From assembly GCF_902826555.1 (NCBI RefSeq), contig NZ_CADEFI010000016.1:32442-77450 (forward strand): 45,009 bases of DNA, read 5' to 3'. Position numbers and translations under genes: made by a program. Origin of the DNA: an uncultured Hyphomicrobium sp. (GTDB lineage Bacteria > Pseudomonadota > Alphaproteobacteria > Rhizobiales > Hyphomicrobiaceae). This document shows positions 21,416 to 44,663 of the stretch, piece after piece. Every line of letters starts with the position of its first letter. Positions within the stretch are counted from its first letter, which is position 1. Below the pieces are notes generated by a model, which had not been told where the DNA came from, made no database searches, and saw nothing but the letters and a program-made list of their open reading frames with translations.

Positions 21416-21763
21416 ATTACTTGTAAATCAATAACTTAGATCGCGACGCAGGCGGTGGAGAATGGTCTCATCTCGCAGGGCCGCGGCGGCCTTCTACCAT
21501 GATCGGTGATGGCCGATAAGCCCCCCTGCTCCCACCCCCAAACCCTTCGCGGATCACAGGATCCTCACCGTATTGCCACCGCTACACCTGTGGCGTCCAT
21601 TTTTCCCATGTTACCCAGGCAATATTACCCAAGTCATTGATATTCCCTTCCCGGGAAGTTTTCTCGGCTATGGCACGGTCGATGCAGCCGACCTCCCGCA
21701 GACCGCAAGGCAATCCCATCGGGTTGCCTAAAAAAGCGCGTCGAAACTAGGGAGCGAAGATCG
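21416..21763 (+). promoter_or_regulatory. Promoter region of the dehydrogenase at 21764
   Basis: This 350-bp stretch holds no gene. It has a pair of TTACCCA repeats about 15 bp apart (TTACCCAGG near 21610 and TTACCCAAG near 21626) and a TTCCCGGGAA palindrome just downstream, then the sigma54 site at 21671. The repeats and palindrome are candidate operator sites. Confidence 0.5.
21671..21686 (+). promoter_or_regulatory. Candidate sigma54 promoter for the dehydrogenase at 21764
   Basis: TGGCACGGTCGATGCA matches the -24/-12 consensus TGGCAC-N5-TTGCA except for one base, with the required GG-N10-GC spacing. Transcription would start near 21697, leaving a leader of about 67 nt before the ATG. Confidence 0.6.
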
Positions 21764-23488
21764 ATGAAGGGCTCAAGGGTTGGCCTCAAGAGCGTATTGC
21801 TCGCGAGCGCCGCAATTGGCGTTTGCGCATCGCCGGCATTCTCACTCGGCGTCTCGACACTCGATGGAAAGCATATCGAGTACTACGTCACCGAGGACAT
21901 GCTTCTCAATGCGGACAAGGATCCGAACAACTGGCTCATGTACGGCCGCGACTACGAGAGCACGCGCTATTCGCCGCTCTCGCAGATCACGACGGAGAAT
22001 GTCGGCGACCTGGTCGCCAAGTGGAGCCTCTCCTTCGGCGTTCTCGGCGCGCAGGATTCGCAGATTACGGCCGTCAACGGCCGTCTTTACGTGTCGTCAA
22101 GCCAGAACCGCGTGTTCGCCATCGATGGCGTCACCGGCAAGGTGCTGTGGCGCTACGACCGCAAGCTTCCTGCCGATCTCGGTCCGAAGCTCTGCTGCGG
22201 TGACGTGAACCGCGGCGTGATTGCCTATGAGGACAAGGTCATCCTTGCCACGCTCGACACGCATGTCGTTGCCCTCGACAACCACACCGGCGAGGTGGTC
22301 TGGGAAACGAAGCTCGGCGACTACAAGACCGGCGAGATCTTCACATCCATGCCGGTGATCGTCGACGGAAAGGTGTTGATCGGAAACTCCGGTGGCGACG
22401 TCGGTGCCAATCCGGGCACGATCTATGCCCTCAATGCCGACGACGGCAAAGAAGCGTGGAAGACGCACACCGTTCCCATGACGGGCAAGGAAGAGATCGC
22501 GAAGACCTGGGGCGGAGAGTCCTGGAAGACAGCCGGCGGAACCCCGTGGCTCCCGGGCTCCTACGACAAGGAAACCGGACTTCTTCTTTGGGGCGTCGGC
22601 AATCCGGTGCCGGACTTCGACGGCAGCGTGCGCCCCGGCGACAACTTGTATACGGGATCGACGATCGCAGTCGACGTGAAGACCGGCGCGATCAAAGGCC
22701 ACTTCCAGTACACGCCTCACGACGTGTGGGACTACGACGGCACCAACGAAGTCATCCTCATCACCGACAAGGAGAACCGCAAGTCTTGGCTGCATGCGGA
22801 TCGCAACGGGCACCTCTACTCCATCGATCGCAAGACCTACAAATGCAACTGGGTCGTGCCGATGGGACGGGTCAACTGGGTGAAGAGCTGGGGCGAAAAC
22901 TGCCGGCCTGAGGCAGATCCCGATAAAATTCCGACCTACGGCAAGGAGACGAAAGACATTGCTCCGGTCCTCGACGGCGGCAAGGAATGGGTGCCAGCCG
23001 CCTACAGCAAGAGAACCGGCTACGTCTATGTTCCGGGCCGCGACATGTCCATGGATCTCGCCGCGAAGAAGCAGGAGTTCAAACCAGGTCAATGGTTCCT
23101 GGGAACGGACGTGCTGCGTCTCAATCCGGGCGGAGGCTACGTGAAGGCGTTCGACGGCACGACCGGCGAACTCGTCTGGTCACGCCGTCAGAATACACCC
23201 GCCACGGGCGGCATGCTGGCAACCGCCGGCGGCCTGGTCTTCAACGGCGACGCGGAAGGAACCTTCCGTGCCATCAAGGACGACACCGGCGAGACGTTGT
23301 GGGAGTTCAATGTCGGCACCGGCATCCATTCGAACCCCACGACCTTCATGGTCGGCGATACGCAGTATGTTGCCATCCTGGCTGGACCGGGCGGCGGCAG
23401 CATCTGGCCGCTGGTCTATGGCGAATGGCTGAAGACACGCCAGCTCGGCGGCAGCCTGTTCGTGTTCGCTGTCCATAAGCGTAAATAA
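21764..23488 (+). CDS. Lanthanide-type PQQ-dependent alcohol dehydrogenase
   Basis: This 574-residue periplasmic quinoprotein has a signal peptide (residues 1-27, ending SPAFS) and eight PQQ-propeller blades. The adjacent Cys pair is present (KLCCGDVNRG). The catalytic motif HDVWDYDGTNEV has Asp two residues after the catalytic Asp, the lanthanide signature. It is shorter than MxaF and XoxF and nearer to ExaF/PedH-type enzymes, which oxidise ethanol and other alcohols; the substrate is not known. GAGCGAAG lies before the ATG. It is followed by a hairpin and then a cytochrome c gene 73 bp later, which is likely its electron acceptor. A sigma54 site lies 78 bp upstream. Confidence 0.88.
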   Translation: MKGSRVGLKSVLLASAAIGVCASPAFSLGVSTLDGKHIEYYVTEDMLLNADKDPNNWLMYGRDYESTRYSPLSQITTENVGDLVAKWSLSFGVLGAQDSQITAVNGRLYVSSSQNRVFAIDGVTGKVLWRYDRKLPADLGPKLCCGDVNRGVIAYEDKVILATLDTHVVALDNHTGEVVWETKLGDYKTGEIFTSMPVIVDGKVLIGNSGGDVGANPGTIYALNADDGKEAWKTHTVPMTGKEEIAKTWGGESWKTAGGTPWLPGSYDKETGLLLWGVGNPVPDFDGSVRPGDNLYTGSTIAVDVKTGAIKGHFQYTPHDVWDYDGTNEVILITDKENRKSWLHADRNGHLYSIDRKTYKCNWVVPMGRVNWVKSWGENCRPEADPDKIPTYGKETKDIAPVLDGGKEWVPAAYSKRTGYVYVPGRDMSMDLAAKKQEFKPGQWFLGTDVLRLNPGGGYVKAFDGTTGELVWSRRQNTPATGGMLATAGGLVFNGDAEGTFRAIKDDTGETLWEFNVGTGIHSNPTTFMVGDTQYVAILAGPGGGSIWPLVYGEWLKTRQLGGSLFVFAVHKRK

Positions 23489-23495
23489 ACCTCGG

Positions 23496-23528
23496 GCGGC
23501 ACGCCGACAGCCCATGCCGGCGTGCCGC
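23496..23528 (+). repeat. 11-bp perfect hairpin after the dehydrogenase
   Basis: GCGGCACGCCG and its exact complement, with an 11-nt loop, lie in the 73-bp gap between the PQQ dehydrogenase and the cytochrome gene. There is no T-run, so a role in mRNA processing or stability is more likely than termination. Confidence 0.6.
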
Positions 23529-23561
23529 TCCATCGACCTCACACGCAGGAGCCTCCGAAAG

Positions 23562-23960
23562 ATGAAACTCTTGACGGCAGCGCTGTCGATGGCCACGGCA
23601 GCGTTGCTCGCCACTCGTGCAGAGCCCACGTTCGCCGACGACGCCGCGGAACTGAAAAACCCACTCGAAGGCCAGGCGGAGGCGATCGAGGCGGGCAAAT
23701 CCCTCTACAGCAACACCTGCCTTTTCTGCCACGGCCCGAATGGCCTCGGCGCCCGCGCGCCGAACCTCGTCGAAGGTCTTTTTCGGCCTAATGGCGGCGC
23801 CGATGACACGATCGTGTTCGACATTATCCTCAAGGGGCGTCCCGGTACGCTCATGGGCGGCTTCGAGGGTACGTACACCGAGACGGAAATCTGGCAGGTC
23901 ATCTCCTACCTTCGGCAGGAAGGGATCGCGCGCGCGAAACCCAAACCCACGCCCAAGTAG
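23562..23960 (+). CDS. Monoheme cytochrome c, likely partner of the PQQ dehydrogenase
   Basis: This 132-residue protein has a signal peptide (residues 1-25) and one heme site, NTCLFCHGPNG (about residues 51-61). A Met in GRPGTLMGGFEGTYTETEIWQV is the probable sixth ligand. The fold is the common class I type used by quinoprotein-coupled cytochromes. It directly follows the lanthanide-type dehydrogenase and should take its electrons. AGGA lies 11 nt before the ATG, a rather long spacing. After it, 23961-24226 holds no evident gene. Confidence 0.88.
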   Translation: MKLLTAALSMATAALLATRAEPTFADDAAELKNPLEGQAEAIEAGKSLYSNTCLFCHGPNGLGARAPNLVEGLFRPNGGADDTIVFDIILKGRPGTLMGGFEGTYTETEIWQVISYLRQEGIARAKPKPTPK

Positions 23961-24226
23961 CGGATCAGTTGCACTTACGGCACGCTAACCACGTCGACGG
24001 CGTGTACGCACAGTTTTGCGCCAACCTTCAACCTTTGGAGGAGTTGACCAAGACAAGCGAACGCCGCACCGTAACATTTCCTCGATGAGAGAAAGCCCTG
24101 TCGCGCTGCGTGCGCGCTGCATTCACTTGCGTCGCCGATTGCGTTTCCAAAAACTCCAGAACCGCTCGATGGCTCGATGGTGTGGTGTCGCCGTTCGGGC
24201 CACCTCATTATTTGGATGGGTGAACC

Positions 24227-25751: not shown

Positions 25752-26333
25752 CTAACCGGCAGCCGAACGCAACTCCAGGGGCGGCGCGCCGAGCGCGCCG
25801 GAATTGAGCTTCGAGACCTCGATCACGATCTGCGTCCGCGTCGTGACGCCTAGCTTTCGCAATATCTCGCCGACGTGCGCTTTGACCGTCGCCTGGCAGA
25901 CGCCGAGGGCAAACGCGATCTGCTTATTGAACAGTCCTTGCCGAACCATCTGCAGGACCTGCAGCTCCCGCTCCGTCAGCAAGAGCAGTCTCCGCGACAG
26001 GCCGCTGCCGCTTTCCCCGCAAGGTCGTCCGACGGCGCGCAAGGGCATTTCCTGCGATCCTTTGCGCCGCGCGCCATGCTGGCAAAGCAGCACGGCCTGA
26101 GTGCGGGATTTCACGCCAAGCCGCCTCAAGACGCCGCTCACGTGCGTTTTCACCGTGGGCTCCTTGAGACCCAGGCTCTCGGCGATTTGCTTGTTGGTGC
26201 GGCCTTGGCAGAGCAGAACAAGCACTCGCCTTTGCTGGTGCGTCAGCAGGAGCCTCTCGGCAATGACAATGTGATGCTCCGATATCGCGGCGACGTTGGC
26301 GACCAAATCGGAGTCGTTCACGATCGAACGCAT
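25752..26333 (-). CDS. Regulator with two tandem LuxR-type DNA-binding domains and no receiver
   Basis: This 193-residue protein holds two LuxR-type helix-turn-helix domains in a row. The first reads LTHQQRRVLVLLCQGRTNKQ, then LGLKEPTVKTHVSGVLRRLG; the second reads LTERELQVLQMVRQGLFNKQ, then LGVCQATVKAHVGEILRKLG. They are about 75 residues apart and similar enough to suggest duplication. There is no receiver, PAS or ligand domain, only about 25 residues before the first domain. ATG at 26333 has AGGA 7 nt upstream; a GTG at 26486 would add 51 residues without clear structure. A consensus sigma54 site lies upstream at 26550-26565. Its targets are unknown, but it is surrounded by quinoprotein genes. 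Confidence 0.85.
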   Translation of the reverse strand: MRSIVNDSDLVANVAAISEHHIVIAERLLLTHQQRRVLVLLCQGRTNKQIAESLGLKEPTVKTHVSGVLRRLGVKSRTQAVLLCQHGARRKGSQEMPLRAVGRPCGESGSGLSRRLLLLTERELQVLQMVRQGLFNKQIAFALGVCQATVKAHVGEILRKLGVTTRTQIVIEVSKLNSGALGAPPLELRSAAG

Positions 26334-26903
26334 CGGGGCATCCTGTCGACGGGGCCGGGTGCATTTACGCGACGAAAAAAACGTGAGGCGGCTCGCCTCG
26401 TCGATTGGGAGAAGGGAATAGACGAGCCGCCTCCCCCCGGAAAACCTCGCAGCCTTCCCAAGGGTCACGAGACGAGCGTCGGACACACCATCAGCCGCGT
26501 GAAAACTGACTGCATCCCGCCCGTCTCGGAGAACGTCACATCGCAGTGAGCAAATGGTGTGCCAAGGAGAGCAAATGGTGCGCTAGACGACGGTCGATGG
26601 CCGCGCACGGCGGCGCGACGTGCGTATCCTTGGGAAATAACGTTCTGCCCTGCCTCGTTTTCTTCTGATCGACGCGGTTCGGGAAACGGCGCCGGGAATT
26701 CTTTCCCGAGGCCGATGTCCGTGTGACACGCGGATGCGACATATCCCTGAGACAGGTGACGCATACCGACGCCTCGCGTCGGAAACTCCTCGGAAAATTC
26801 GCTTTTTGTCCTCGTTACACGGATGGCGTTCGGCGGCATCGCTCATCGGCGCTGCGCACGGCCTGAACTTCGATCATTGGGAGAGAGCCCAGATCCCCGG
26901 CGA
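26334..26903. other. Intergenic region between the tandem-HTH regulator and the beta-propeller gene
   Basis: About 570 bp with no convincing gene. It holds the sigma54 site at 26550-26565 and its partial copy at 26569-26583. The rest (26590-26900) has short antisense open frames without recognisable features. Confidence 0.5.
26550..26565 (-). promoter_or_regulatory. Candidate sigma54 promoter for the tandem-HTH regulator, with a nearby partial copy
   Basis: On the minus strand it reads TTGGCACACCATTTGC, an exact match to the -24/-12 consensus with GG-N10-GC spacing. A second copy of the core, GAGCAAATGGTGCGC at 26569-26583 on the plus strand, repeats the first (26548-26562) at a 21-bp interval but lacks the GG of the -24 box. 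Transcription would start near 26538. Confidence 0.7.
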
Positions 26904-28018: not shown

Positions 28019-30142
28019 TCAGTTGCTCGGCGGCTGCGCGGCGTCCAACGCCTTCTTTCTGATGAAGTTCTGCAGCGCCTTCAGATCGTCATCGGTAAGA
28101 TTCTTGAACTGCGGCATCCCGCTGGGGAAGAGAGCTCCCTCCTGAACGATCTTCTTGAGCTGCTCGTCGTGAAGGACTGCCTCGGACGCTCGCAGGTCAG
28201 GCGTGTAGCCGCCGGAGACGGCTCCGGCACCATGGCACCAGGCGCACGACGACTTGTAGAGATGCTCGCCGCGGTCCGCCAAAGCGGCATCCGGCGTGAA
28301 GCCGGCCGGCGTCAGCACCTTTGCGAAGGTCCGCTCGCCGACTTCTGGCATCGGCTTGTCCGCTCCAACCGCAAAGGTGAGGAGCTGACGAAGCTGCGCG
28401 CGGTAGCCCCAACCATACTGGGCCATGGAACTGCCGCCGCCATAGGCAACCGCGGCGCCACCAAAACCAACCAGGAGAGACACGTACTGTTTGCCGTCAA
28501 CGGCGTAGGTAATGGGAGGAGCGCTGATACCGCTTCCCACGTTGACCGACCAGAGCTCCTTGCCGTCACGTGCGTCGTAGGCTGCGAACTTGCCGTCGAT
28601 CTGGCCCTGGAAGACGAGATTACCAGCCGTGGTCATCGTTCCCGCATTCCAGTAGTTGGGCTGCGGGACCTCCCACACCTTCTTCTGCTTCACCGGATCC
28701 CATGCCGTCAGGAAGCTCGTTCCCGCATCCTTGGGGATGTCGCCGCCCAGGCCAACGTCGACGCCAACGTCGATCTGGAACGAGGGCTTCTTCCAGGAAT
28801 TGAAGTCGATCTTGGAGTCGTCCCAGTGGGTCGGCAACTCCATCTTGGGGATGTAAACCAACCCGGTGTTGGGGTTGTAGGACATGGCGTGCCAGGAATG
28901 CCCACCAAACACGCTCGGCCAGATCGTTACCGGCTCTTTCTCGTAACGCGCTCCAGGGGCTTCGATCGGACGACCGGTCTTCATGTCAATGCCGGTTGCC
29001 CAGGTGACCTTTGCGAACGGCTCTGCCGAGAGAAGCTTTCCGTCCTTGCGGTCGATGACGTAGAAGAAGCCGTTCTTCGGCGCGTGCATCAGAACTTTCT
29101 TCTTGCCCTCGCCCTCCTTGAGCTCGAGATCGGCAAGGACGATGTCCATGGTCGAGGTGTAGTCCCACGTCTCGCCGGGCGTCGTCTGATAGTGCCACTT
29201 GTACTTGCCGCTCGTCGCATCGAGCGCGACGACGGAGCAGAGGAAGAGGTTATCGCCGCCTTGCGGGCTGCGGATCTTCTGGTTCCAGGGACCGCCGTTT
29301 CCGGTTCCGATCAGGATCTGGTCGAACTCGGCATCGTAGGTGAAGGCATTCCACGTCTGGCCGCCACCGCCGATCTTCCACCACTCGCCGGTCCAGGTCT
29401 TGGCCGCCATCTCCTGGGCTGCATCCTCGAAGCCGTCGGCGGGGTTGCCGGGCACGACATAGAATTTCCATGCCTCTTTTCCGGTGTCGACATGATAGGC
29501 GGTGATGAACCCGCGCCCGCCACCCTGCTCGGAGCCGCCGTTGCCGATGATGACGAGGTCACGGAATGCCTTGGGGGCGCCGCTGATATGCAGCGGGAGC
29601 TTGGGGTCGAACGTCTGCGTGGTCCAGATCGGCTTGCCGGTCTTCGAATCCAGAGCAATGAGGCGGCCGTCGGCCGTGGCGATGATGACCTTGCCTTTGT
29701 AGAAGGTCAGACCGCGGCTCCAGCCCCACAACATGCGGGCGCGATCGCCGGCATGCTTCAAGGTCTCGGGATCATATTCCCAAATCAGTTTTCCGGTTTT
29801 CGCATCAACCGCACGAGCTACGCTGTAGCTGCCGGTGAAGTAGAGAACGCCATCGACGGTGACCGGGGTGCCGACGAGAGCACGGTCGGCCGGCAACGGC
29901 AGCGCCCAGGCGAGGCCAAGCTTCGAGACGTTGTCGACATTGATTTCGTCGAGGGGGCTATACCGCTGCTCGCTGTGATCGCGGCCGTAAGCCAGCCAGT
30001 TGTCTTTCTGTGCCGCGTCCGTCATTGCGGCATCATCGACCACCGTCTCCGCGGACGCACGGCTCCAAGAACCCGGAAGCGTACCGGCGATAGCCAGTAT
30101 CATTGCAGCGCCGGTCATACGTCCTAATCGGTTCGCCTTCAT
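28019..30142 (-). CDS. PQQ quinohemoprotein alcohol dehydrogenase with C-terminal cytochrome c domain
   Basis: This 707-residue periplasmic protein has a signal peptide (residues 1-31), a PQQ propeller (about 45-590) and a cytochrome c domain (about 610-700) with heme site SSCAWCHGAG and a probable Met ligand in SGMPQFKNL. This is the layout of type II quinohemoprotein alcohol dehydrogenases. The active site is GETWDYTSTMD: Thr two residues after the catalytic Asp points to calcium, not a lanthanide. The ring-forming Cys pair is missing; the matching segment reads RARMLWGWSRGLTF. Electrons should pass from PQQ to the built-in heme. It is divergent from the acetoin-dehydrogenase-like operon and has a consensus sigma54 site about 490 bp upstream of its ATG. 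Confidence 0.9.
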   Translation of the reverse strand: MKANRLGRMTGAAMILAIAGTLPGSWSRASAETVVDDAAMTDAAQKDNWLAYGRDHSEQRYSPLDEINVDNVSKLGLAWALPLPADRALVGTPVTVDGVLYFTGSYSVARAVDAKTGKLIWEYDPETLKHAGDRARMLWGWSRGLTFYKGKVIIATADGRLIALDSKTGKPIWTTQTFDPKLPLHISGAPKAFRDLVIIGNGGSEQGGGRGFITAYHVDTGKEAWKFYVVPGNPADGFEDAAQEMAAKTWTGEWWKIGGGGQTWNAFTYDAEFDQILIGTGNGGPWNQKIRSPQGGDNLFLCSVVALDATSGKYKWHYQTTPGETWDYTSTMDIVLADLELKEGEGKKKVLMHAPKNGFFYVIDRKDGKLLSAEPFAKVTWATGIDMKTGRPIEAPGARYEKEPVTIWPSVFGGHSWHAMSYNPNTGLVYIPKMELPTHWDDSKIDFNSWKKPSFQIDVGVDVGLGGDIPKDAGTSFLTAWDPVKQKKVWEVPQPNYWNAGTMTTAGNLVFQGQIDGKFAAYDARDGKELWSVNVGSGISAPPITYAVDGKQYVSLLVGFGGAAVAYGGGSSMAQYGWGYRAQLRQLLTFAVGADKPMPEVGERTFAKVLTPAGFTPDAALADRGEHLYKSSCAWCHGAGAVSGGYTPDLRASEAVLHDEQLKKIVQEGALFPSGMPQFKNLTDDDLKALQNFIRKKALDAAQPPSN

Positions 30143-30631: not shown

Positions 30632-30647
30632 GCAAGCGCCGTGCCAA
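30632..30647 (-). promoter_or_regulatory. Candidate sigma54 promoter for the quinohemoprotein dehydrogenase
   Basis: On the minus strand it reads TTGGCACGGCGCTTGC, an exact consensus match with GG-N10-GC spacing. Transcription would start near 30620, so the dehydrogenase mRNA would have an unusually long leader of about 480 nt. Confidence 0.65.
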
Positions 30648-30882
30648 GTCGCATCAGCCCGGCAGTGCTTCCAATTTGGCGCTTGAGCGACGGTTCACGG
30701 GAGACATCTGTCTCAGCGTTGATCCAGCCGTTATAGGCGTTGCGCGCAGTGGCGCACGCTCCGACCCTGGACCGGGCCCGTGCCAACGGCCGCCCTCTTC
30801 GAAGCCCAACCGGAATTCCGGTCGCGAAACAGACTGCTGCGCCGCACAGCAGAGCAACGTGGCGCGCTCTGTCGATCGACAT

Positions 30883-30896
30883 GCGACGATTGTTGC
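30883..30896. promoter_or_regulatory. Candidate activator-binding palindrome
   Basis: GCGACGATTGTTGC differs at two positions from the palindrome GCGACAATTGTCGC, variants of which also occur at 44087 and 44393. It lies about 90 bp upstream of the plus-strand and 240 bp upstream of the minus-strand sigma54 site, typical distances for a sigma54 activator. Confidence 0.5.
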
Positions 30897-30982
30897 AACG
30901 GCGAGACAGGACCTGTCGCAACGCGTCCCTGCTCGCGAGCGTTTCTCGCAGTTCGTCAACACTTTAACTCCCTGCGCAGCTC

Positions 30983-30997
30983 TGGCACGAAGAATGC
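30983..30997 (+). promoter_or_regulatory. Candidate sigma54 promoter for the acetoin-dehydrogenase-like operon
   Basis: TGGCACGAAGAATGC matches the consensus except for one base in the -12 box and has exact GG-N10-GC spacing. Transcription would start near 31009, about 80 nt before the first gene. An AcoR-type activator is encoded at the other end of the operon. Confidence 0.7.
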
Positions 30998-32074: not shown

Positions 32075-32133
32075 CAAGCGCACCCGCTGATTCAGAAACG
32101 ACGAAGCTAAAAAATTAAAACAGGAGAACGCCC

Positions 32134-33404: not shown

Positions 33405-33422
33405 CGGACGAGGAACTGAGCC

Positions 33423-34133: not shown

Positions 34134-34137
34134 CGCC

Positions 34138-34896
34138 GTGCCGAGCAGCTTACAGGCGGCAGCACTGGAGACGGCGTCTCACGATCCGCTCCTCGACTTC
34201 AATACGGCTCAGACGCTCGAAAGACAGTTGCTCGATGCGGCGGCTGCACGCGGCGCCGGCTGCGATTGGGCGGTCTGGAGAACGCATCAATCGCTGGTCG
34301 TTCCCTCACAAACTGCAAACGCCGCCAATTTCTATGTCGCGTCCCTGGATATGTCGCTCAGGGGATGGCCGGTCTACGTCCGCGACACCGGAGGGGACGT
34401 AACGCCCCAGTCACCGGGGGTCATCAATGCGTCCGCTGCCTTCGTCGTGCCTCGCACGACGGACCTCAGCATCCGAGCCACCTATCAAAGGTTCTGTGCG
34501 CCGTTGCTGGAGTTTCTCGGCGCGCACGGTATCGACGCCTACCTCTCGAGCGTGCCCGGCGCCTTCTGTGATGGCGCCTTCAACATCGTCGTCGATGGAC
34601 TGAAACTCGCAGGAACCGCGCAACGATGGCGGCTGGTACAATTGCGCGACGGGCGACCGGGCGTGGCCGTACTCGCCCACGCCGCCATCCTGGCCGATCC
34701 CGACATCGAGTTCAGCATCTCCGCAACGAACCGCTTCTATCGGCTCTGCGGAGAGGAGCGCGAGGTGGATCCCGCTCGGCATACGTCGCTGGCCACGCTT
34801 TTCACGCCACGCGCAAGCACCGAGCTGATCGTGGAACGGCTCAGCCACTTCCTCCACCAGAGGAGAGATTTCAATCCTGCTGGTTCGGAGAGATGA
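34138..34896 (+). CDS. Lipoate-protein ligase-like protein
   Basis: This 252-residue protein resembles the lipoate/biotin ligase family. Residues about 60-100 match the ligase core (VVPSQTANAANFYVAS, then YVRDTGGDVTPQSPGVINAS in place of RRxSGGGxVxHDxGN), and residues about 140-165 match the lipoyl-adenylate site (GAFCDGAFNIVVDGLKLAGT, with the conserved Lys, then AQRWR). It should attach lipoate to the free lipoyl domain in the same operon; this is inferred from family and context. The His of the classical motif is absent (TPQ). GTG start, 4 bp after the E2 stop. Its 3' end overlaps the convergent acoR-like gene by 26 bp. Confidence 0.8.
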   Translation: MPSSLQAAALETASHDPLLDFNTAQTLERQLLDAAAARGAGCDWAVWRTHQSLVVPSQTANAANFYVASLDMSLRGWPVYVRDTGGDVTPQSPGVINASAAFVVPRTTDLSIRATYQRFCAPLLEFLGAHGIDAYLSSVPGAFCDGAFNIVVDGLKLAGTAQRWRLVQLRDGRPGVAVLAHAAILADPDIEFSISATNRFYRLCGEEREVDPARHTSLATLFTPRASTELIVERLSHFLHQRRDFNPAGSER

Positions 34897-37211: not shown

Positions 37212-37790
37212 TTACTGGCGCGGTCCGCCGTAGCCGTTGATCTCACCGGTCGCCAGCGTGTTCTGGTAAATGAAGAACCCCGTCAGAGCAGCCGTCGCGT
37301 TTTTCTCGACCTCCAGCTTCGGCGTTTTCAGGGCGTGTACGGTAAATGTGTAACGGTGCTTGCGACCGACGGGCGGGCACGGGCCAAAGAAGCCCGGCTT
37401 GCCGAGATCGGTGTTGCCTTCGACGGCGCCGGTCGGCAGCACGCCGCCCTTGATGGCTCGGACGTCGGCCGGGATGTCGTAGATCACCCAGTGCCAGAAG
37501 CCGCTGCCCGTCGGGGCGTCATGATCGTAGAAGGTGATCGCGTAGCTTTGCGTGCCCTCCGGCCCAGCGTCCCACTCGAGGTCCGGCAGCTTGTTTCCGC
37601 CGCTACAGCCGAAGTTGTTCCAGAAGTGCTCGTTGCCGATCGGGGCCCCTTCCTTAAAGGTCGGGCTCTTGAGAGACAGCGTCGTGGCGGCGCCCGGCTC
37701 GGCTGCGACGGACACGCCGACGGCAGCGCCGAAGACGCACCCCGTTGCAGCGAGCGCAGCGGCCAGCGTTGCAATTCTGACTTTGATCAC
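37212..37790 (-). CDS. YbhB/YbcL-type PEBP family protein, exported
   Basis: This 192-residue protein belongs to the phosphatidylethanolamine-binding-protein/YbhB family: FGCSGGNKLPDLEWDAGPEG, then SYAITFYDHDAPTGSGFWHWVIYDIPADV and GPCPPVGRKHRYTFTVHAL. The family binds small anionic ligands; bacterial roles are poorly known. It has an N-terminal signal peptide (residues 1-29, ending VSVAA); a Cys at residue 17 sits in a weak lipobox-like context. GTG at 37790 is chosen because GGAGG lies 7 nt upstream; a longer frame from 37853 would overlap lpdA. It begins 19 bp after lpdA and ends the operon before the terminator at 37117. Confidence 0.88.
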   Translation of the reverse strand: MIKVRIATLAAALAATGCVFGAAVGVSVAAEPGAATTLSLKSPTFKEGAPIGNEHFWNNFGCSGGNKLPDLEWDAGPEGTQSYAITFYDHDAPTGSGFWHWVIYDIPADVRAIKGGVLPTGAVEGNTDLGKPGFFGPCPPVGRKHRYTFTVHALKTPKLEVEKNATAALTGFFIYQNTLATGEINGYGGPRQ

Positions 37791-37809
37791 TCTGATCCTC
37801 CGTTGACAG

Positions 37810-39279
37810 CTAAATGTGGATGGCCTGACCCGCTGCGGCCAATGCACTCTCATGCATCATCTCCGACAACGTCGGGTGCGGGAAGATCGTCAAGCTCAGG
37901 TCGCGTTGCGTGGCCCCGCACTGCATGGCGATGACGAAACCGTTGATCAACTCCGTGACCTCCGCGCCGCACATGTGGGCGCCGATCAGGCGTCCGCTTC
38001 CGGTTTCGAAGATCGTCTTGACCATGCCTTCGGTCTCACCCAACGCAATGGCTTTGCCGTTGCCCCTGAACGGAAAGCGGCCGATGAGAATATCGATGCC
38101 GGCCTCTCTCGCGCGTGCCTCCGTCAACCCCACGCTCGCAATCTGGGGATGGCAATAGGTGCAGCCCGGAATCCTCTCCTTCAACACGACATGGGCCGGG
38201 CGCTCAGCGATACCCTCGATGCAAGCGACCCCTTCGTGCTCCGCCTTGTGTGCCAACATCGGCGGACCGGCGACATCGCCGATCGCATAGATGCCCGGAA
38301 CGTTCGTGCGACCGAGAGCGCCGGTGGCGATGGTCCCGTTCCTGAGCTCAACACCGTGAGCTTCGAGACCGAGGTTCTCCGTGTTGCCGACGACGCCGAC
38401 CGCCGAGAGCAGGCGTTCGGCCGATATCTCCAGCGTGGCGTTATCGTGGATCACCGTCGCGCGCACGCCGTCGGGCTCTTTGGCGATCGCCGCGACGCGC
38501 GCGTTGGTCAGGATCTTGATCCCCGCCTTCTCGAACTGCTTGCGGGCAAACGCAGCGATTTCGACATCCTCTGCGGGAAGAATTTGCGGAAGCACCTCGA
38601 CCACGGTGACCTCTACGCCGAGCGCACGATAGAAGCTCGCGAACTCGATGCCGATGGCGCCGGATCCGACAACGATCAGCGACCGTGGAACCGACGGCGG
38701 GTTCATGGCCTCGAAATAGGTCCAGATGCGATCGCCATCCGGCTCGATGCCGGGCAGGACGCGCGGCCTGGCTCCGGTCGCAACGATGATGTGACGCGCG
38801 CGATAGGTGCCTGGCCCAAGCGCGGCCTTGGGCGCGGGGTGCTGCGGCTGCACGACGGGCTTCTCGGTGGCACGGACAGAAATTTCTCCTGGCACGCCGG
38901 CACCGGGTGCGCGCGCGATTGTCGCCTCTCCCCAGATGACATCGACCTTGTTCTTCTTGAGCAGGAAGCCGACGCCCGTGTTCAACTGCGCGGAGACGGA
39001 TCGGGACCGCTGAATGACAGCTGCGGGATCGTAGCCCACGCCTTCTGCCTTGAGTCCAAATTCCTTGGCGCGGGACGCGAGATGGATCACCTCCGCGGTG
39101 CGCAGCAATGCCTTGGTCGGAATGCAACCCCAGTTCAGGCAAATGCCGCCGAGATGCTCTCGTTCAACAATAGCACACCGGAGCCCAAGCTGAGCGCCGC
39201 GTATCGCCGTCACGTAGCCGCCGGGTCCGGCGCCGATGATGACGACGTCGTAGTCTAAATTGTCCATCGTGTCCTTCAT
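37810..39279 (-). CDS. lpdA: Dihydrolipoyl dehydrogenase (E3)
   Basis: This 489-residue flavoprotein re-oxidises the dihydrolipoyl group of the E2 complex and reduces NAD+. It has the FAD-binding start DVVIIGAGPGGYVTAIRGAQ, the redox disulfide GGICLNWGCIPTKALL, the NAD-binding VVGSGAIGIEFASFY, and the C-terminal His-Glu pair HPHPTLSEMMHESAL. An insert of about 25 residues (PVVQPQHPAPKAALGPG region) lies before the second motif. Two starts are possible: ATG at 39279 and ATG at 39267 with AAGGA about 4 nt upstream. It is 104 bp after the GMC gene; it would serve as E3 for the acetoin-dehydrogenase-like complex encoded on the other strand. Confidence 0.95.
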   Translation of the reverse strand: MKDTMDNLDYDVVIIGAGPGGYVTAIRGAQLGLRCAIVEREHLGGICLNWGCIPTKALLRTAEVIHLASRAKEFGLKAEGVGYDPAAVIQRSRSVSAQLNTGVGFLLKKNKVDVIWGEATIARAPGAGVPGEISVRATEKPVVQPQHPAPKAALGPGTYRARHIIVATGARPRVLPGIEPDGDRIWTYFEAMNPPSVPRSLIVVGSGAIGIEFASFYRALGVEVTVVEVLPQILPAEDVEIAAFARKQFEKAGIKILTNARVAAIAKEPDGVRATVIHDNATLEISAERLLSAVGVVGNTENLGLEAHGVELRNGTIATGALGRTNVPGIYAIGDVAGPPMLAHKAEHEGVACIEGIAERPAHVVLKERIPGCTYCHPQIASVGLTEARAREAGIDILIGRFPFRGNGKAIALGETEGMVKTIFETGSGRLIGAHMCGAEVTELINGFVIAMQCGATQRDLSLTIFPHPTLSEMMHESALAAAGQAIHI

Positions 39280-39296
39280 GCTTGAGAGCGAGAGGT

Positions 39297-39318
39297 CCTC
39301 GCGGGATTTGCCGCGAGG
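39297..39318 (-). repeat. 8-bp hairpin between the GMC and lpdA genes
   Basis: CCTCGCGG and CCGCGAGG enclose a 6-nt loop in the 104-bp gap between the GMC stop and lpdA. There is no T-run; a processing or attenuating role is possible. Confidence 0.45.
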
Positions 39319-39383
39319 CTCCTTGCTCGATGTGCGGCCGCTCGCAGAGGCGCAACGGCGGTTGATCTAAGGCGGAAGCGTCC

Positions 39384-40964
39384 TCAGATATTTCCCTGCT
39401 GCATTTCCTTAGCGAGGTACTCCGCCTGGCGGATTGCCAGAGCGACGATCGTCAGCGTCGGGTTCGGGGAGCCGCTGCTCGAAAACTGACTGCCGTCGGA
39501 GACGAAGAGGTTCTTGATGTCGTGCGATTGACCCCACTTGTTGAGCACGCCGTCGCGCGCCTTTTCGCTCATGCGGTTGGTGCCCATGTTGTGGCTCGCC
39601 GGGTAGGCCGGCAGATTGTAGATTTCCGTCGACCCGAGCGAGTTGTAGATCTTTTCCATCTGCTGATAGGCGTGGTTGCGCATATTGGTGTCGTTCGGGT
39701 GGTCGGTCTTGTAGACGACGGGCGCAGGCAAGCCGTACTGGTCCTTCTCGGTCGCGTGCAACTCGATGCGGTTCTGCTCCTGAGGCAGATCCTCGCCGCA
39801 GATCCACACCCCCGACATGTATTTGTACTTTTCGAGCGCACCGGACACCTTGCGGCCCCATCCCGTGGGTCCTGGAACGAGGAACGCGGACAGGAACCCC
39901 AATCCCAGCGCGAGCTTCTCGAGCGTATAGCCGGCAACAAAGCCTCGCTTCGGATCATTGTGCGCTTCGTCACGCACGATGCCGGCGACGGCCGTCCCGC
40001 GGTTCATGTGAACCTCGCCCGGCATGACGGCATACACACCTGCCGTCATGTGCGTCATGTAGTTGCGGCCCACCTGTCCCGACGAATTGGCAAGTCCGTT
40101 CGGGAACATGTTCGAAGCCGAGTTGAGCAGCAGCCGGGGCGATTCAATGGAGTTACCGGCGACGCAGACCACCCGCGCCTTCTGGCGCTGCTTGGTCCCG
40201 GCGGAGTCCGCATACACGACGCCGGTCACTTTTCCGGACTTGTCGTGCTCGATGGTCAGAACCATGCAGTTGGTGCGGATTTCGCAATTGCCCGTGGCCT
40301 CCGCCTTCGGCAACTCGGTGTAGAGCGTGGACCACTTCGCACCGAGCTTGCATCCCTGCATGCAGAAGCCGATCTGCTGGCACGCCGGCCGATCGTCCCT
40401 TTCGACGGAATTGATCGACATCGGTCCTGCGGTGATTTTCGAGTATCCGATGCGACGGGCGCCTTCGGCCAGAACCTTGAAGTCCGCGCTCCAGGGAAGA
40501 TGCGGCATGCCGGTCACCTCTCCGGTGGTGCCCATCTTCAGCTCCGCCTTGTCGTAGTAAGGCGAAAGCTCCGCCAGCGTGATCGGCCAATCGATGACGT
40601 TGGCGCCGGTGACGTCGCCGTTGGTCGTCCTCATCTTGAACTCGTGCTCCTGGAACCGGATCGATACGCCCGCCCAGTGCACCGTCGAGCCGCCCAGGCC
40701 CTTCACGATCCACGCCGGAAGATTGGGATGGTTCACCGCACCATGCCAGCCGCCTGCGGAGAAGCGCTTATCGAGCCACGAGATCTTGGAGAACATGGCC
40801 CATTCGTCGTTCTCGATGTCGTCCAAGGTCAGCTTGTTGCCGGCTTCCAGAACGACGCATTTCACGCCCTTCTGGGCGAGCTCGTTGGCCATCGTTCCGC
40901 CGCCTGCGCCGGAGCCGACGATAACGACAACGCTGTCGTCGTTGAGATCGAATTTCGTGCTCAT
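39384..40964 (-). CDS. GMC-family FAD-dependent alcohol/sugar dehydrogenase, large subunit
   Basis: This 526-residue flavoprotein has the FAD-binding start VVIVGSGAGGGTMANELAQ, the GMC motif WIVKGLGGSTVHWAGVS, the active-site His in PASHNMGTNRMSEKA and the C-terminal SSGSPNPTLTIVALA. The Cys pattern ACQQIGFCMQGCKLG resembles the 3Fe-4S site of membrane-bound FAD glucose dehydrogenase. With the Tat-exported small subunit encoded 28 bp upstream, it forms the gluconate/glucose/sorbitol dehydrogenase type of complex that oxidises polyols or alcohols at the membrane. It has no signal peptide itself, as expected if the small subunit carries it through Tat. The substrate is unknown; a diol or ketol fits the neighbouring acetoin-type genes. 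Confidence 0.9.
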   Translation of the reverse strand: MSTKFDLNDDSVVVIVGSGAGGGTMANELAQKGVKCVVLEAGNKLTLDDIENDEWAMFSKISWLDKRFSAGGWHGAVNHPNLPAWIVKGLGGSTVHWAGVSIRFQEHEFKMRTTNGDVTGANVIDWPITLAELSPYYDKAELKMGTTGEVTGMPHLPWSADFKVLAEGARRIGYSKITAGPMSINSVERDDRPACQQIGFCMQGCKLGAKWSTLYTELPKAEATGNCEIRTNCMVLTIEHDKSGKVTGVVYADSAGTKQRQKARVVCVAGNSIESPRLLLNSASNMFPNGLANSSGQVGRNYMTHMTAGVYAVMPGEVHMNRGTAVAGIVRDEAHNDPKRGFVAGYTLEKLALGLGFLSAFLVPGPTGWGRKVSGALEKYKYMSGVWICGEDLPQEQNRIELHATEKDQYGLPAPVVYKTDHPNDTNMRNHAYQQMEKIYNSLGSTEIYNLPAYPASHNMGTNRMSEKARDGVLNKWGQSHDIKNLFVSDGSQFSSSGSPNPTLTIVALAIRQAEYLAKEMQQGNI

Positions 40965-40992
40965 TGTCCCCCCTGGGAAATCAGTGCCGGTT

Positions 40993-41538
40993 TCAGAACC
41001 AGTCGATTTTGTCGAAGCCCTTGTCGATGAATCCGCCCGTCTCCCAGGACGAACCGTCGTATCCGAACTTCGGCCAGAGAGCCTTGTTGTTGTAGAGCCC
41101 CATCAGGAGGCCGCCCTTGATCTTCTGGAAGAAGTCGGTGAGCTCGATCGAGCGCAGGACTCCCTCCCGTTCCTCGGGCTTGGAAATCGCCGTGTAATTC
41201 ACTTTGTAAATGTGCTGCGCGCGTTGCTCGAGATCCTCGACACCTTTGCTCAAAAGGTCCGCAACGGTGGGCGAGCTTTCGGCTTCGACGAGAATGGCGT
41301 CGATCACTGCCTGGTAAGGGGCATCATCGAGAAGGCTGTCGTGGGGATAAATGTCGCGCGCAACGCGAAGCAGAGTGGTCTTCTGATCCGCGCTCAACGG
41401 GGCGGCGAAAGCATCCGGCGGCAGCGCCGGAAGGGCCAATGCGGCCGTCACGAGCATCATGGATTTAAGCAGGCGCCGACGCGTAAAGTCAGCACCCGCG
41501 ACAGCCGGTTCCCCGACCTGCAGCGGTGAATTGTACAT
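40993..41538 (-). CDS. Gluconate 2-dehydrogenase subunit 3-like protein with Tat signal
   Basis: This 181-residue protein has a twin-arginine signal (FTRRRLLKSMMLVTAALALP, residues 18-37) and the gluconate 2-dehydrogenase subunit 3 domain (LLRVARDIYPHDSLLDDAPYQ ... LKGGLLMGLYNNKALWPKFG form). These small subunits escort the folded GMC flavoprotein through the Tat pathway and stay in the complex. GGGAGGAAAG lies just before the ATG. A consensus sigma54 site lies 72 bp upstream. It is the first gene of the GMC-lpdA-PEBP transcript and is separated from the cytochrome gene by 251 bp. Confidence 0.92.
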   Translation of the reverse strand: MYNSPLQVGEPAVAGADFTRRRLLKSMMLVTAALALPALPPDAFAAPLSADQKTTLLRVARDIYPHDSLLDDAPYQAVIDAILVEAESSPTVADLLSKGVEDLEQRAQHIYKVNYTAISKPEEREGVLRSIELTDFFQKIKGGLLMGLYNNKALWPKFGYDGSSWETGGFIDKGFDKIDWF

Positions 41539-41609: not shown

Positions 41610-41625
41610 GCAAGTTGCGTGCCAA
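41610..41625 (-). promoter_or_regulatory. Candidate sigma54 promoter for the GMC dehydrogenase operon
   Basis: On the minus strand it reads TTGGCACGCAACTTGC, an exact consensus match with GG-N10-GC spacing. Transcription would start near 41598, about 60 nt before the Tat-subunit ATG. About 65 bp further upstream, GCTACAGTCGCAC at 41690-41702 resembles the palindrome at 44087 with three central bases missing. Confidence 0.75.
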
Positions 41626-41789
41626 CGGGTTCGTTCATGAAACCGCGAGAAATGCGAAGTCAGCAACGTGCGATGATCCCCATCGAGGCGCTACAGTCGC
41701 ACTGCTTGTGCGGCACCTGTAACAGAGCATCGCGTGTCGAAAGGCAAGGAGGCGCTTGAAGCGCACGATCTCGAGGGCCGCGCGGGCCA

Positions 41790-42158
41790 TCACTTGGAAG
41801 GCGGCTGCTTCGACAGGTAATTCAGATAGGCGACGAGCTCCCATATCTGCTCGGGCGTGAAGGTATTGCCCCACGGGGGCATCACGTCGGCGCCGGTGCG
41901 CCCCTCGGTGATGGTCTTGTGGGCGGCGGCGGCCGAGAAATTCGTGTTGCCTTTGAAGCTCGGCGTCTTGCCGCCCTCGCCTTCGGAACCGTGACAGTAG
42001 GCGGCGCAATTGGCGCCAAAGCGCTTTTTTCCAATCTCGATTTTCGCCGGATCGGACAGATCGAACGGAGGCGTGGCGTCCTCTGCGAGCGCGGGACGAT
42101 CTATGCATGCGCAGATCATCATGCAGGCAAGAGCGAGGCGCAGGCTTTGACAGTTCAT
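41790..42158 (-). CDS. Small c-type cytochrome with CX3CH heme motif
   Basis: This 122-residue exported protein has a signal peptide (residues 1-25, ending PALAE) and class I cytochrome c features: heme motif FGANCAAYCHGSEGEGG and probable Met ligand in GADVMPPWGNTFTPEQIWEL. The heme motif is C-A-A-Y-C-H, with three residues between the cysteines instead of two; the nucleotide reading (TGC GCC GCC TAC TGT CAC on the minus strand) is clear. It lies between the PQQ dehydrogenase and the GMC operon and should accept electrons from one or both. A terminator-like hairpin separates it from the PQQ dehydrogenase upstream. Confidence 0.88.
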   Translation of the reverse strand: MNCQSLRLALACMMICACIDRPALAEDATPPFDLSDPAKIEIGKKRFGANCAAYCHGSEGEGGKTPSFKGNTNFSAAAAHKTITEGRTGADVMPPWGNTFTPEQIWELVAYLNYLSKQPPSK

Positions 42159-42190
42159 CGCTAAGGGATCCCTCCGTCGAGAAACGCGAA

Positions 42191-42224
42191 AACGGCCACC
42201 GAGACGTAGGGCTCGGTGGCCGTT
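42191..42224 (-). terminator. 13-bp perfect hairpin after the PQQ dehydrogenase at 42240
   Basis: AACGGCCACCGAG and its exact complement enclose an 8-nt loop, 16 bp after the dehydrogenase stop. On the minus strand the stem ends in TTTTCGCGTTTC, so it can act as a partial terminator before the cytochrome gene. Confidence 0.75.
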
Positions 42225-42239
42225 GGATGCTAGTGAACT

Positions 42240-43919
42240 TTAGTTCACTGTAAAGACGAGCAGCGCGGCGCCGCCCGGAAGGTCCTTGATCTGCGGGAAC
42301 GCACCGCTGAGGAACCCAGGTGCGTGAGAGCCGAGACCGGTCGGGATGGCGATGTACTGCTTGCCATTGACCGCATAGCTCACCGGACCACCGCGAGAGC
42401 CGGATCCGGCGTTGAACTTCCACAGCTCCTTGCCGTCGTCGGCATCGTAGGCGTAGAGGTTGCCGTGCATGTCACCCGTGAACACGAGACCACCTGCGGT
42501 CGAGAGAACCGAGCTCAGCGGCGGCATGTCGTAGCGGATCTTCCAGGCTTCCTTGCCGGTCAGCGGATTGAACGCCGCGAGCCAACCATCGGCCTTCTTG
42601 CCCGGAGGATCCGTCAGCTTGATGTCGGCCAATCCGAGGGAGAGCGAACCGACGCCGGCCGGCTTCTCCTGCTTGGCGCTCGTCACGTGGTTGCAGACTT
42701 CCATGCCGTGCGAGTACCAGAGCTTCGTCCCAGGGTTATACGAGCCGTGATTCCAGCTGCGCGCGCCGAGAAGGTTCGGGCAGTGCAGCTTCGTCTTGTC
42801 GGTCTCGGGGAAGTTCGGCTCGATCGGAATACCCGTCTTCGGATCGACGCCCTTCGCCCAGTTCATGTTCTCCGTGTACTGCCACACGTTCCTGATATCG
42901 CCGTTGTCCTTGTCCATCACATACACAAAGCCGTTCTTGTTCAGATGCACGAGTGACGTCTTGTCTCCGTCCGGAACGAGCAATGCCTCGTAGGCGGAGT
43001 CGAAGTCCCACGTGTCGTTCGGAACCTCCTGGCGATACCATTTGATCTTGCCGGTCTTGGGATCGAGCGCCAGGACCGTCGCGGTGTAGAGGTTGTCGCC
43101 CTCGCGGCCTTCACGATTGAAATCCGGCGCAGCGTTGCTGGTGCCGATGTAGATGGTGTCGGTCGAGGGATCGTAGGTTCCGGGCAACCACGCGGAGCCA
43201 CCGCCGATGTGACGGCTTTCGCCAGGCCAGCTCTTGGGGTCGTCTTTCGGAATTTCGAAGGTCCATGCGCGCTCGCCGGTGTCGGCCTTCACGGCGAAGA
43301 TCTTGCCGACGATAGGCTGGTCGCCGCCGGTGGTGCCTCCGAACACGATGTCGCCCGCGAGCTGCGGCGGCGACGAGAACAGAGCGCCATACTCCGCCTT
43401 CATGTTCGTCAGCTGCGTGGACCACAGCTCCTTGCCGGTCTTCTGGTCGAGCGCAATGAAGCGGCCGTCCAACGAGCCGATGAAGACTTTGCCTCGGCCG
43501 ACGGTCACGCCGCGGCTCGCGGACTGATAGAAGACTTCCTTGACGATCGGATCGAGCTTTGCGGTGTAGCGCCAGATGATCTTTCCGGTCGCCGCATCGA
43601 GAGCGAAGACGTTGTTGTCGGCGGCGATCGTGTACATCACGCCGTCAATGACGATAGGCGTCGCCTGGAGGCCGTGCGTGATCACGCCCGGCTGATGGAT
43701 CCAGGCAATGTGCAGATCCTTGACGTTGCCCTTGTTGATCTGGTCCAACGGGCTGAAGCGCCATGCGTTGGGACTGCGATGATACTGCGGCCAGTTGTTC
43801 GGATCATCAAAACCCGGCCCTTTGCCTTCCGCGTTTGCGGCGCCCGCGCTCAGCAGAACAAGCGCTGCTCCACCGACAATGCTCGACCAGGAGCGCTTCC
43901 GCTCCATTCCTTTCAGCAT
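42240..43919 (-). CDS. PQQ-dependent dehydrogenase with lanthanide signature and no ring disulfide
   Basis: This 559-residue periplasmic quinoprotein has a signal peptide (residues 1-31, ending AANAE) and PQQ-propeller blades (VDGVMYTIAADNNVFALDAA form). The catalytic motif is NDTWDFDSAYEALL: Asp two residues after the catalytic Asp, as in lanthanide enzymes. The Cys pair next to PQQ is missing; the matching segment reads KEVFYQSASRGVTV. It has no heme domain. The ATG at 43919 is chosen because GGGGAGAGGAAC lies just upstream and a signal peptide follows; the open frame extends to 43997. It is led by a sigma54 site and followed by a hairpin and a cytochrome gene, its likely electron acceptor. 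Substrate unknown. Confidence 0.88.
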   Translation of the reverse strand: MLKGMERKRSWSSIVGGAALVLLSAGAANAEGKGPGFDDPNNWPQYHRSPNAWRFSPLDQINKGNVKDLHIAWIHQPGVITHGLQATPIVIDGVMYTIAADNNVFALDAATGKIIWRYTAKLDPIVKEVFYQSASRGVTVGRGKVFIGSLDGRFIALDQKTGKELWSTQLTNMKAEYGALFSSPPQLAGDIVFGGTTGGDQPIVGKIFAVKADTGERAWTFEIPKDDPKSWPGESRHIGGGSAWLPGTYDPSTDTIYIGTSNAAPDFNREGREGDNLYTATVLALDPKTGKIKWYRQEVPNDTWDFDSAYEALLVPDGDKTSLVHLNKNGFVYVMDKDNGDIRNVWQYTENMNWAKGVDPKTGIPIEPNFPETDKTKLHCPNLLGARSWNHGSYNPGTKLWYSHGMEVCNHVTSAKQEKPAGVGSLSLGLADIKLTDPPGKKADGWLAAFNPLTGKEAWKIRYDMPPLSSVLSTAGGLVFTGDMHGNLYAYDADDGKELWKFNAGSGSRGGPVSYAVNGKQYIAIPTGLGSHAPGFLSGAFPQIKDLPGGAALLVFTVN

Positions 43920-43981
43920 GTTCCTCTCCCCGTCGCCCGATGCCGGGCTGACACTGTTATGACTTAACGGCAATGATCGAT

Positions 43982-43997
43982 GCAGGCTCTGTGCCAA
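43982..43997 (-). promoter_or_regulatory. Candidate sigma54 promoter for the PQQ dehydrogenase at 42240
   Basis: On the minus strand it reads TTGGCACAGAGCCTGC, matching the consensus except for one base in the -12 box, with GG-N10-GC spacing. Transcription would start near 43970, about 50 nt before the ATG. Confidence 0.7.
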
Positions 43998-44086
43998 GCT
44001 TTGGGAGTATTTCCTAACCCGTCTTTCCGCTTTTCCTATCCGCTTTTTCCGATACCTCCTGGGCAGGAATATGCGTCACCTGACGC

Positions 44087-44100
44087 GCTACAATTGTCGC
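44087..44100. promoter_or_regulatory. Candidate activator-binding palindrome
   Basis: GCTACAATTGTCGC is one base away from the perfect palindrome GCGACAATTGTCGC. It lies about 90 bp upstream of the minus-strand sigma54 site. Confidence 0.55.
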
Positions 44101-44392
44101 ACGCATAGACATGCGATCTGACCGCGGAGTTCATTTTGCCGCTCGCGCGAAACCGCCGCGGCACCGGTTCATCAGAAAAATAAAAGTCGGATTTGCAAAA
44201 CACCGCACCAGGGCGGAACGAGAGGAGAGCCGACTCGCGCTAAAAGTTCCGCGGGATGGAATGCACGCGTGGAGATCGATAGAATTGGCGCTCGCTCAAG
44301 CCTCATCGCCAGCGCCTTTCGGCATTCAATTCTCTAACCACCTCCGCGCGTAAAGTCCCTGTGCGGACGTCGATGCGACTGTCGAACGTCAC

Positions 44393-44406
44393 GCGACAAA
44401 TGTCGC
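44393..44406. promoter_or_regulatory. Candidate activator-binding palindrome
   Basis: GCGACAAATGTCGC is one base away from GCGACAATTGTCGC; its 6-bp arms GCGACA and TGTCGC are exact. It lies about 245 bp upstream of the plus-strand sigma54 site that faces the porin. Confidence 0.55.
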
Positions 44407-44647
44407 ATGGGGTTTTCGCTTGTCGGCGTTGCATGGGTGAGTGCGTTCGGTGCGCATGCGTTCTTACGTTCACCGGTGGCTTTCCCTGTTGCGCATTGGC
44501 AACGATTCTTGTCGCCTTTCATAGCCTGACTCAAGCTGAGCTTGATTTATAGTGCTTTGATTTCCAAGTACATTTTCTCAATGTCTGTAATCGGTGCAAC
44601 TCGTGCGCTTTCCCTCCGCGCGCCGTCCGACAGTGGGTAGTGCCGGA

Positions 44648-44663
44648 TTGGCACAGCGCTTGC
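44648..44663 (+). promoter_or_regulatory. Candidate sigma54 promoter for the porin
   Basis: TTGGCACAGCGCTTGC, followed by T, is an exact match to the -24/-12 consensus with GG-N10-GC spacing. Transcription would start near 44675, giving a leader of about 200 nt before the porin ATG. Confidence 0.7.

Follow-up and report, generated by a model that had tools for sequence, protein, structure and literature searches.

Sigma54-type promoter sites and a common upstream palindrome in an alcohol-oxidation gene cluster of Hyphomicrobium

Gene content and sigma54-type sites

The window analyzed here is a 45,009-nt stretch of the genome of an uncultured Hyphomicrobium sp. (C16:32442-77450, the right edge being the end of the contig; genome of 3.72 Mb in 81 contigs). 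As shown in Table 1, its right half contains genes for dehydrogenases that depend on pyrroloquinoline quinone (PQQ), an E1/E2-type complex, a GMC operon, a porin, and an AcoR-like sigma54 activator. This report concerns seven sites of the sigma54 (-24/-12) type that are located in front of these genes and a palindrome that is found upstream of most of them.

The seven sites (TGGCAC-N5-TTGC; four exact and three with one mismatch, all with the GG-N10-GC spacing) are located where a preliminary description of this DNA had placed them; the last one starts at 44649(+) by our count, the earlier value of 44648 including the preceding T. Each is intergenic and faces a gene, as had also been stated, and the distances to the likely start codons are 78, 216, 489, 90, 71, 62, and 210 nt in map order. 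The 30632 site does face the quinohemoprotein gene to which it had been assigned, but the third of these distances shows how far it lies from the start of that gene. Intergenic status refers to our own gene calls and starts, with some short mechanical open reading frames (ORFs) across gaps discounted: a 124-aa ORF (26465-26839, minus strand) that overlaps the 26550 site has no NCBIfam or Pfam match, short ORFs cross the gap at 30.6 to 31.0 kb, and a TTG-started ORF reaches 43997 across the 43982 site, where we prefer the ATG at 43919, behind GGGGAGAGG.

With GG and GC fixed and up to one mismatch allowed, the window contains 11 sites; 8 of these are intergenic, and 7 of the 8 lie within 21.5 to 45 kb, where 150 column-permuted motifs place 0.23 sites on average and never more than 3. 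The four further sites are 18411(+), 20266(-), 22395(-), and 28446(-); 22395(-) has TGGCAC too, but it is internal to the 21764 gene. Exact sites number 12 in the genome, 4 of them within this 18 kb, versus 3 for the reversed pattern. The exact-to-reversed counts of eight genus genomes are mixed (12:3 for our own, then 10:9, 6:12, 7:9, 12:7, 12:5, 15:11, and 9:9), and at up to one mismatch the genome has no excess (235 versus 268 for the control); the site count alone therefore proves little. As read from the sequence, the case is carried by clustering, placement, conservation, and the common palindrome rather than by the count.

Cluster regions were taken from four genus members (G063, G066, G067, and G068) and four other family members (G016, G018, G051, and G087). 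A site with up to one mismatch precedes gmcS in all eight relatives, each of which has the gene, and E1 alpha in six of the seven with that upstream region (none in G087; the G066 contig stops short). The porin has such a site in 4/4 genus members, and the porin-like pieces in G051 have none within one mismatch. For the quinohemoprotein gene, the site is found in all three relatives with the upstream region, at 79, 212, and 333 nt. G067 shares our site before the 42240 gene, and the one in G068 differs from the consensus at two positions. At the aligned place before the 21764 gene, one mismatch is seen in G066 and two each in G067 and G068. The counterpart of the 26550 site, in front of a leader and lipA, is exact in all four genus members; in G066 and G067 all 15 letters are identical to ours, while G068 and G063 have different letters that also fit the consensus exactly.

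Chance, i.e., TGGCAC-like sites arising in G+C-rich intergenic DNA while ordinary promoters are in use, would fit the exact counts that are no higher than the control in some genus members, and also the lack of excess at one mismatch in the genome and, with up to two allowed, in the window, which has 41 sites for an expectation of 46.3. The permutation tests of both the sites and the palindromes (see below) and the conservation of position, however, make this explanation scarcely credible.

Table 1. Positions of the features in the right half of the window
Feature	Position	Strand	Remarks
Weak palindrome, 10/14	21580..21595		CGCTACACCTGTGGCG; upstream of 21671 site
Sigma54-type site, one mismatch	21671..21685	+	TGGCACGGTCGATGC; before 21764 PQQ dehydrogenase
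PQQ alcohol dehydrogenase, WDYDG	21764..23488	+	TIGR03075, 534.3 bits; then cytochrome c, 23514-23960
Fusion ORF (ThiS::LuxR)	25752..26333	-	First ~20 residues ThiS-like, then tandem LuxR helix-turn-helix (HTH) domains
Two-hairpin leader	26375..26463	-	Loop CTTCTCCC and T-run; candidate attenuator or small RNA
Sigma54-type site, exact	26550..26564	-	TGGCACACCATTTGC; before leader and fusion ORF
Palindrome, 12/14	26748..26763		TGAGACAGGTGACGCA; 184 bp upstream of 26550 site
PQQ-associated beta-propeller	26904-27872	-	After quinohemoprotein gene
Quinohemoprotein alcohol dehydrogenase	28019..30142	-	PQQ domain and cytochrome c; TIGR03075, 563.9 bits
Sigma54-type site, exact	30632..30646	-	TGGCACGGCGCTTGC; faces quinohemoprotein
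Palindrome, 12/14	30882..30897		TGCGACGATTGTTGCA; between divergent 30632 and 30983 sites
Sigma54-type site, one mismatch	30983..30997	+	TGGCACGAAGAATGC; before E1 alpha
E1 alpha/E1 beta operon	31088..34896	+	With lipoyl domain, E2 core, ligase; profile matches
Stand-alone lipoyl domain, 77 aa	33171-33404	+	In E1 operon
E2 catalytic domain	33423-34133	+	In E1 operon
LplA-like ligase	34138-34896	+	In E1 operon, behind E2
AcoR-like sigma54 activator	34871..36814	-	AAA+ (PF00158), PF25601, Fis-type HTH (PF02954)
GMC operon	37212..41538	-	Four genes, as follows
PEBP protein	37212-37853	-	GMC operon
Dihydrolipoyl dehydrogenase (E3)	37810-39279	-	GMC operon
GMC oxidoreductase	39384-40964	-	GMC operon
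TAT-type small subunit (gmcS)	40993-41538	-	GMC operon
Sigma54-type site, exact	41610..41624	-	TGGCACGCAACTTGC; before GMC operon
Weaker palindrome, 11/14	41709..41724		TGCGGCACCTGTAACA; by 41610 site
PQQ dehydrogenase with cytochrome c	41790..43919	-	Dehydrogenase 42240-43919 (TIGR03075, 457.4 bits, below cut-off); cytochrome c 41790-42158
Sigma54-type site, one mismatch	43982..43996	-	TGGCACAGAGCCTGC; before fifth PQQ dehydrogenase (42240 gene)
Tandem palindromes	44072-44087 and 44086-44101		TGCGTCACCTGACGCG, CGCTACAATTGTCGCA; by 43982 site
Palindrome, 13/14	44392..44407		CGCGACAAATGTCGCA; 242 bp upstream of porin site
Sigma54-type site, exact	44649..44663	+	TGGCACAGCGCTTGC; before porin
Porin gene start	44874..45009	+	Runs off contig; full-length relatives match Porin_4

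The upstream palindrome

The palindrome TGCGACA-NN-TGTCGCA, which is absent from the preliminary description, was read from aligned promoter blocks. Scored in the zone from 30 to 300 bp upstream of each site, the best palindromes match 10, 12, 12, 12, 11, 12, and 13 of 14 positions in map order, so that five of the seven sites reach at least 12. Permuted half-sites reach 12/14 at a mean of 0.03 for these seven sites and 0.01 for the other exact sites. Palindromes with up to three mismatches occur at 10 places in the window (3.46 expected), a number reached in 0 of 100 shuffles. The block with the 30882 palindrome is aligned in four genomes and that with the 44392 palindrome in three. Taken alone, the 21580 palindrome is no better than shuffles (27% of 60 were as good); its block, CGCGACA-NN-TGTG, is aligned in three relatives.

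Eight other exact sites in the genome were held out from the reading of the motif, and theirs is the only palindrome count that is held out: two score 12 and six score 8 or 9. C1:126256 has a palindrome 65 bp upstream and faces a gene for a PQQ alcohol dehydrogenase (TIGR03075, 540.5 bits), and C29:42807, with a 12/14 palindrome, faces an O-methyltransferase-type gene. No palindrome accompanies the exact sites in front of the genes for an ammonium transporter and an amino-acid permease, which would fit control of these two genes by a different activator. Of 18 genome palindromes with up to two mismatches, 16 were examined, and 7 of these have a site with up to one mismatch no more than 330 bp downstream. 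A score of 12/14 is reached by 11 of the 17 cluster sites in the genus members (site L046:15020 left out) and also by all of seven further genus sites, which were chosen partly for carrying the palindrome. In L143, a sigma54-type site and a palindrome (9807 and 9938) precede an O-methyltransferase-type gene close to a contig end.

TIGR03075 (cut-off, 480.05 bits) matches 19 places in the genome, which were grouped as 13 PQQ-dehydrogenase genes, one weak C18 match being excluded. A site together with a palindrome of at least 12/14 is found at four of the 13, i.e., the quinohemoprotein gene, the 42240 gene, the C1 gene, and a C54 gene whose one-mismatch site is 222 bp from the palindrome; the 21764 gene is added as a fifth with its site and weak palindrome. 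The C24 gene has a one-mismatch site, no palindrome, and its own activator gene upstream (L253 667-2803). No facing site with up to one mismatch was found for the remaining seven (3408, 8703, C16:26837, C23, C46, C59, and C1:319101), the upstream stretch examined for the last five being about 1.2 to 2.3 kb. The 8703 gene encodes the MxaF-like enzyme of a methanol-oxidation type cluster in the left half of the window, which also includes MoxJ-like, MoxR, and VWA proteins. The residue motif is WDYDG in the 21764 and 3408 enzymes, WDFDS in the 42240 enzyme, and WDYAG in the 8703 enzyme; from its motif, we take the 21764 enzyme to be lanthanide-type.

The AcoR-like activator and the proposed regulon

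The genome contains one RpoN match and seven strong matches to the activator domain, one of which is the 34871-36814 protein. The AAA+ domain and Fis-type HTH of this protein agree with its earlier designation as an AcoR-like sigma54 activator, but the AcoR label expresses similarity only; the best NCBIfam match is DhaR (310.8 bits, cut-off 551), and no AcoR model is among the matches listed (25 of 27). The four genus members with the cluster are also those in which close orthologs of the activator (78-90%) are found. Elsewhere in the genus, G065 has a 35% match only, and G064 and G069 have none at an E value of 1e-60.

We consider it likely that the seven sites are real sigma54 promoters belonging to one regulon, as the preliminary description suggested; the single RpoN, the sites kept before orthologous genes, and the common palindrome, including that at two unlinked sites, support this suggestion. 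The AcoR-like activator would bind the palindromes, mostly about 65 to 260 bp upstream, loop to the RNA polymerase carrying the single RpoN, and respond to an alcohol-derived inducer by opening the promoters. Predicted members are several PQQ dehydrogenases and cytochromes c, the GMC flavoprotein dehydrogenase, the porin, and the E1/E2/E3-type complex with its stand-alone lipoyl protein and own ligase; in relatives, the regulon would add lipoyl synthase and, in two of them, ThiG for thiazole synthesis, i.e., the cofactor supply of the complex. The inducer may be a multi-carbon alcohol or hydroxyketone. Acetoin and acetol, proposed because the Methylocella GMC enzyme is needed for acetol use and because of the complex found here, are fair guesses, no more.

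Several observations weigh against a single regulon of this composition. The palindrome is weak at 21580 and moderate at 41709 (10/14 and 11/14), and palindromes with up to two mismatches are barely in excess in the genome (18 places versus 13 for the control). Only 4 of 10 sites in the other family members reach 12/14 (one further site left out), and among 19 exact sites at further genus loci (L199-L214), 6 reach 12, one reaches 11, and 12 have none. The palindrome counts for our own sites and those of the genus are partly circular because the motif itself was derived from the same promoters and their counterparts in relatives. Sigma54 activators are known for a GAFTGA loop; in the present protein and in its four genus orthologs the loop is GTFTGG. 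In four plasmid clusters of other families, E1 alpha lacks an upstream site with up to one mismatch. Finally, exact sites without a palindrome occur in G065 before a PQQ dehydrogenase gene and upstream of a gmcS-GMC pair; genes of this kind can therefore be served by other activators. In G063, G065, G066, and G068, exact sites also lie close to further AcoR-like genes and PQQ genes, which suggests a theme wider than one activator.

The G065 sites without a palindrome and the weak palindromes at 21580 and 41709, together with the seven activator-domain matches and the C24 gene beside its own activator gene, would favor real sigma54 promoters that are served by several activators in overlapping small regulons. 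On the other hand, the same palindrome occurs with at least 12/14 at five of the seven sites and at the two unlinked ones, in blocks that are aligned in relatives, and we regard such a division as unlikely.

It may also be proposed that a LuxR-type regulator binds the palindrome and acts with sigma54, the AcoR-like protein acting elsewhere. PMC6115532 cites exaA of Azospirillum as needing sigma54 and a LuxR-type regulator, and a tandem-HTH LuxR ORF is present in the window. This ORF, however, is a fusion that itself stands under one of the promoters, and a match across both of its HTH domains was found only in G063 (51%) among the loci searched, whereas each of the eight relatives used for the cluster comparison has the AcoR-like gene. 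A LuxR-type regulator at the palindrome is thus very improbable.

The E1/E2 complex, the leader, and related systems

An acetoin-dehydrogenase-type gene set (E1 alpha, E1 beta, E2, and E3) lies together here, with E2 split and E3 within the GMC operon. E1 alpha scores below both cut-offs for the pyruvate dehydrogenase E1 alpha (290.1 versus 393.85 and 207 versus 411.35), and the label "acetoin-type" denotes similarity, not proof. The split of the lipoyl domain from E2 recurs in the eight relatives and in plasmids of Gemmobacter, Phaeobacter, Paracoccus, and Sphingomonas; a sequencing error as its origin was rejected on these grounds. In the plasmid gene lists, the GMC gene adjoins the split complex in Gemmobacter and Phaeobacter only, and no ligase was seen in that of Sphingomonas. 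The nearest Protein Data Bank entries to the GMC protein are fructose and glucose dehydrogenase subunits. On plasmid p2 of Gemmobacter fulvus, the E1-lipoyl-E2-GMC cluster has an activator gene and an rpoN gene (L228 21873-23159) next to it, and a di-iron monooxygenase operon lies ~4 kb from the cluster. A search for a soluble di-iron monooxygenase had no match in our own genome, but the control search also matched nowhere.

In aco operons, the sigma54 activator AcoR stands beside an E1-E2-E3-type complex. The present locus shares this arrangement and differs in the split E2, in the stand-alone lipoyl protein with its ligase, and in the addition of quinoproteins, a GMC enzyme, and a porin (AcoR is treated in PMC4676750 and PMC8427195). 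Stand-alone lipoyl proteins with dedicated ligases are also known as the LbpA lipoate-binding proteins of sulfur oxidation in Hyphomicrobium denitrificans (PMC6067878); these are accompanied by heterodisulfide-reductase-like genes, and E1 and E2 genes are found here instead. Deletion of the GMC oxidoreductase gene Msil_1641 in Methylocella silvestris led to accumulation of acetol and to no growth on 2-propanol or acetone, according to PMC7364539; the likeness lies in the GMC enzyme and in the Gemmobacter cluster near a di-iron monooxygenase operon, and it was drawn without protein sequence comparison.

Sigma54 control of several quinoproteins had been called unusual in the preliminary description. 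There is a precedent for a single quinoprotein, since the PQQ alcohol dehydrogenase gene exaA of Azospirillum brasilense Sp7 is described in PMC6115532, which cites it, as being under sigma54 and a LuxR-type regulator. One dehydrogenase gene and a LuxR-type partner are reported there, whereas several dehydrogenases, a common palindrome, and an AcoR-like activator are found here. No report of co-control of several quinoproteins was found in the literature searched, beyond which most subscription papers lie.

The 26550 promoter had been assigned to the tandem-HTH regulator, which is right for this genome but misses its likely ancestral role, as lipA is downstream in four relatives. The corresponding site is followed by ThiS, ThiG, and then lipA in G068, by ThiG and then lipA in G066, and immediately by lipA in both G067 and G063. 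A tandem-HTH LuxR gene comes after lipA in G063. Our own ORF joins a ThiS-like start to a LuxR remainder, so the genes that lay between thiS and luxR have apparently been lost from this genome by deletion. The ancestral role of the promoter was likely the supply of cofactors (lipoate and the thiazole of thiamine pyrophosphate) for the E1/E2 complex.

The leader alignment, of five sequences only, has an invariant CTTCTCC loop, with 95% of cells paired and 4 of 26 pairs changed on both sides. The leader model matches 11 of 103 family genomes at E values of up to 0.01; the five strong matches are the input sequences themselves, and the others are weak (4e-5 and above). An Rfam search with the leader gave no credible match and no known riboswitch. 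A T-run follows the leader in our own genome, G067, and G068. That the 26550 site makes a small RNA only was rejected, since the leader runs into lipA, thiG-lipA, or thiS-thiG-lipA in relatives, and G066 and G063 lack the T-run. In G063, an ORF that resembles the start of the porin is followed by a hairpin with a similar CTTCTCCC loop (L213 8226-8329).

For quinoprotein alcohol dehydrogenases, the switches usually considered are of the two-component and lanthanide kinds. We put forward only tentatively, as a possibility with less than even support, that the whole multi-carbon alcohol programme of Hyphomicrobium is set by a single AcoR-like activator through a new palindromic enhancer. This programme would comprise several PQQ dehydrogenases including a lanthanide-type one, the E1/E2 complex downstream of them with its free lipoyl protein, and the supply of cofactors to this complex by a sigma54-driven operon whose two-hairpin leader may be an unnamed attenuator or small RNA. 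The palindrome would be a concrete, testable enhancer sequence, and unlinked members on C1, C54, and C29 are predicted. If true, sigma54 control of several quinoproteins together with their cytochromes and the associated complex, in one regulon, would account for the switch of a methylotroph to growth on larger alcohols.

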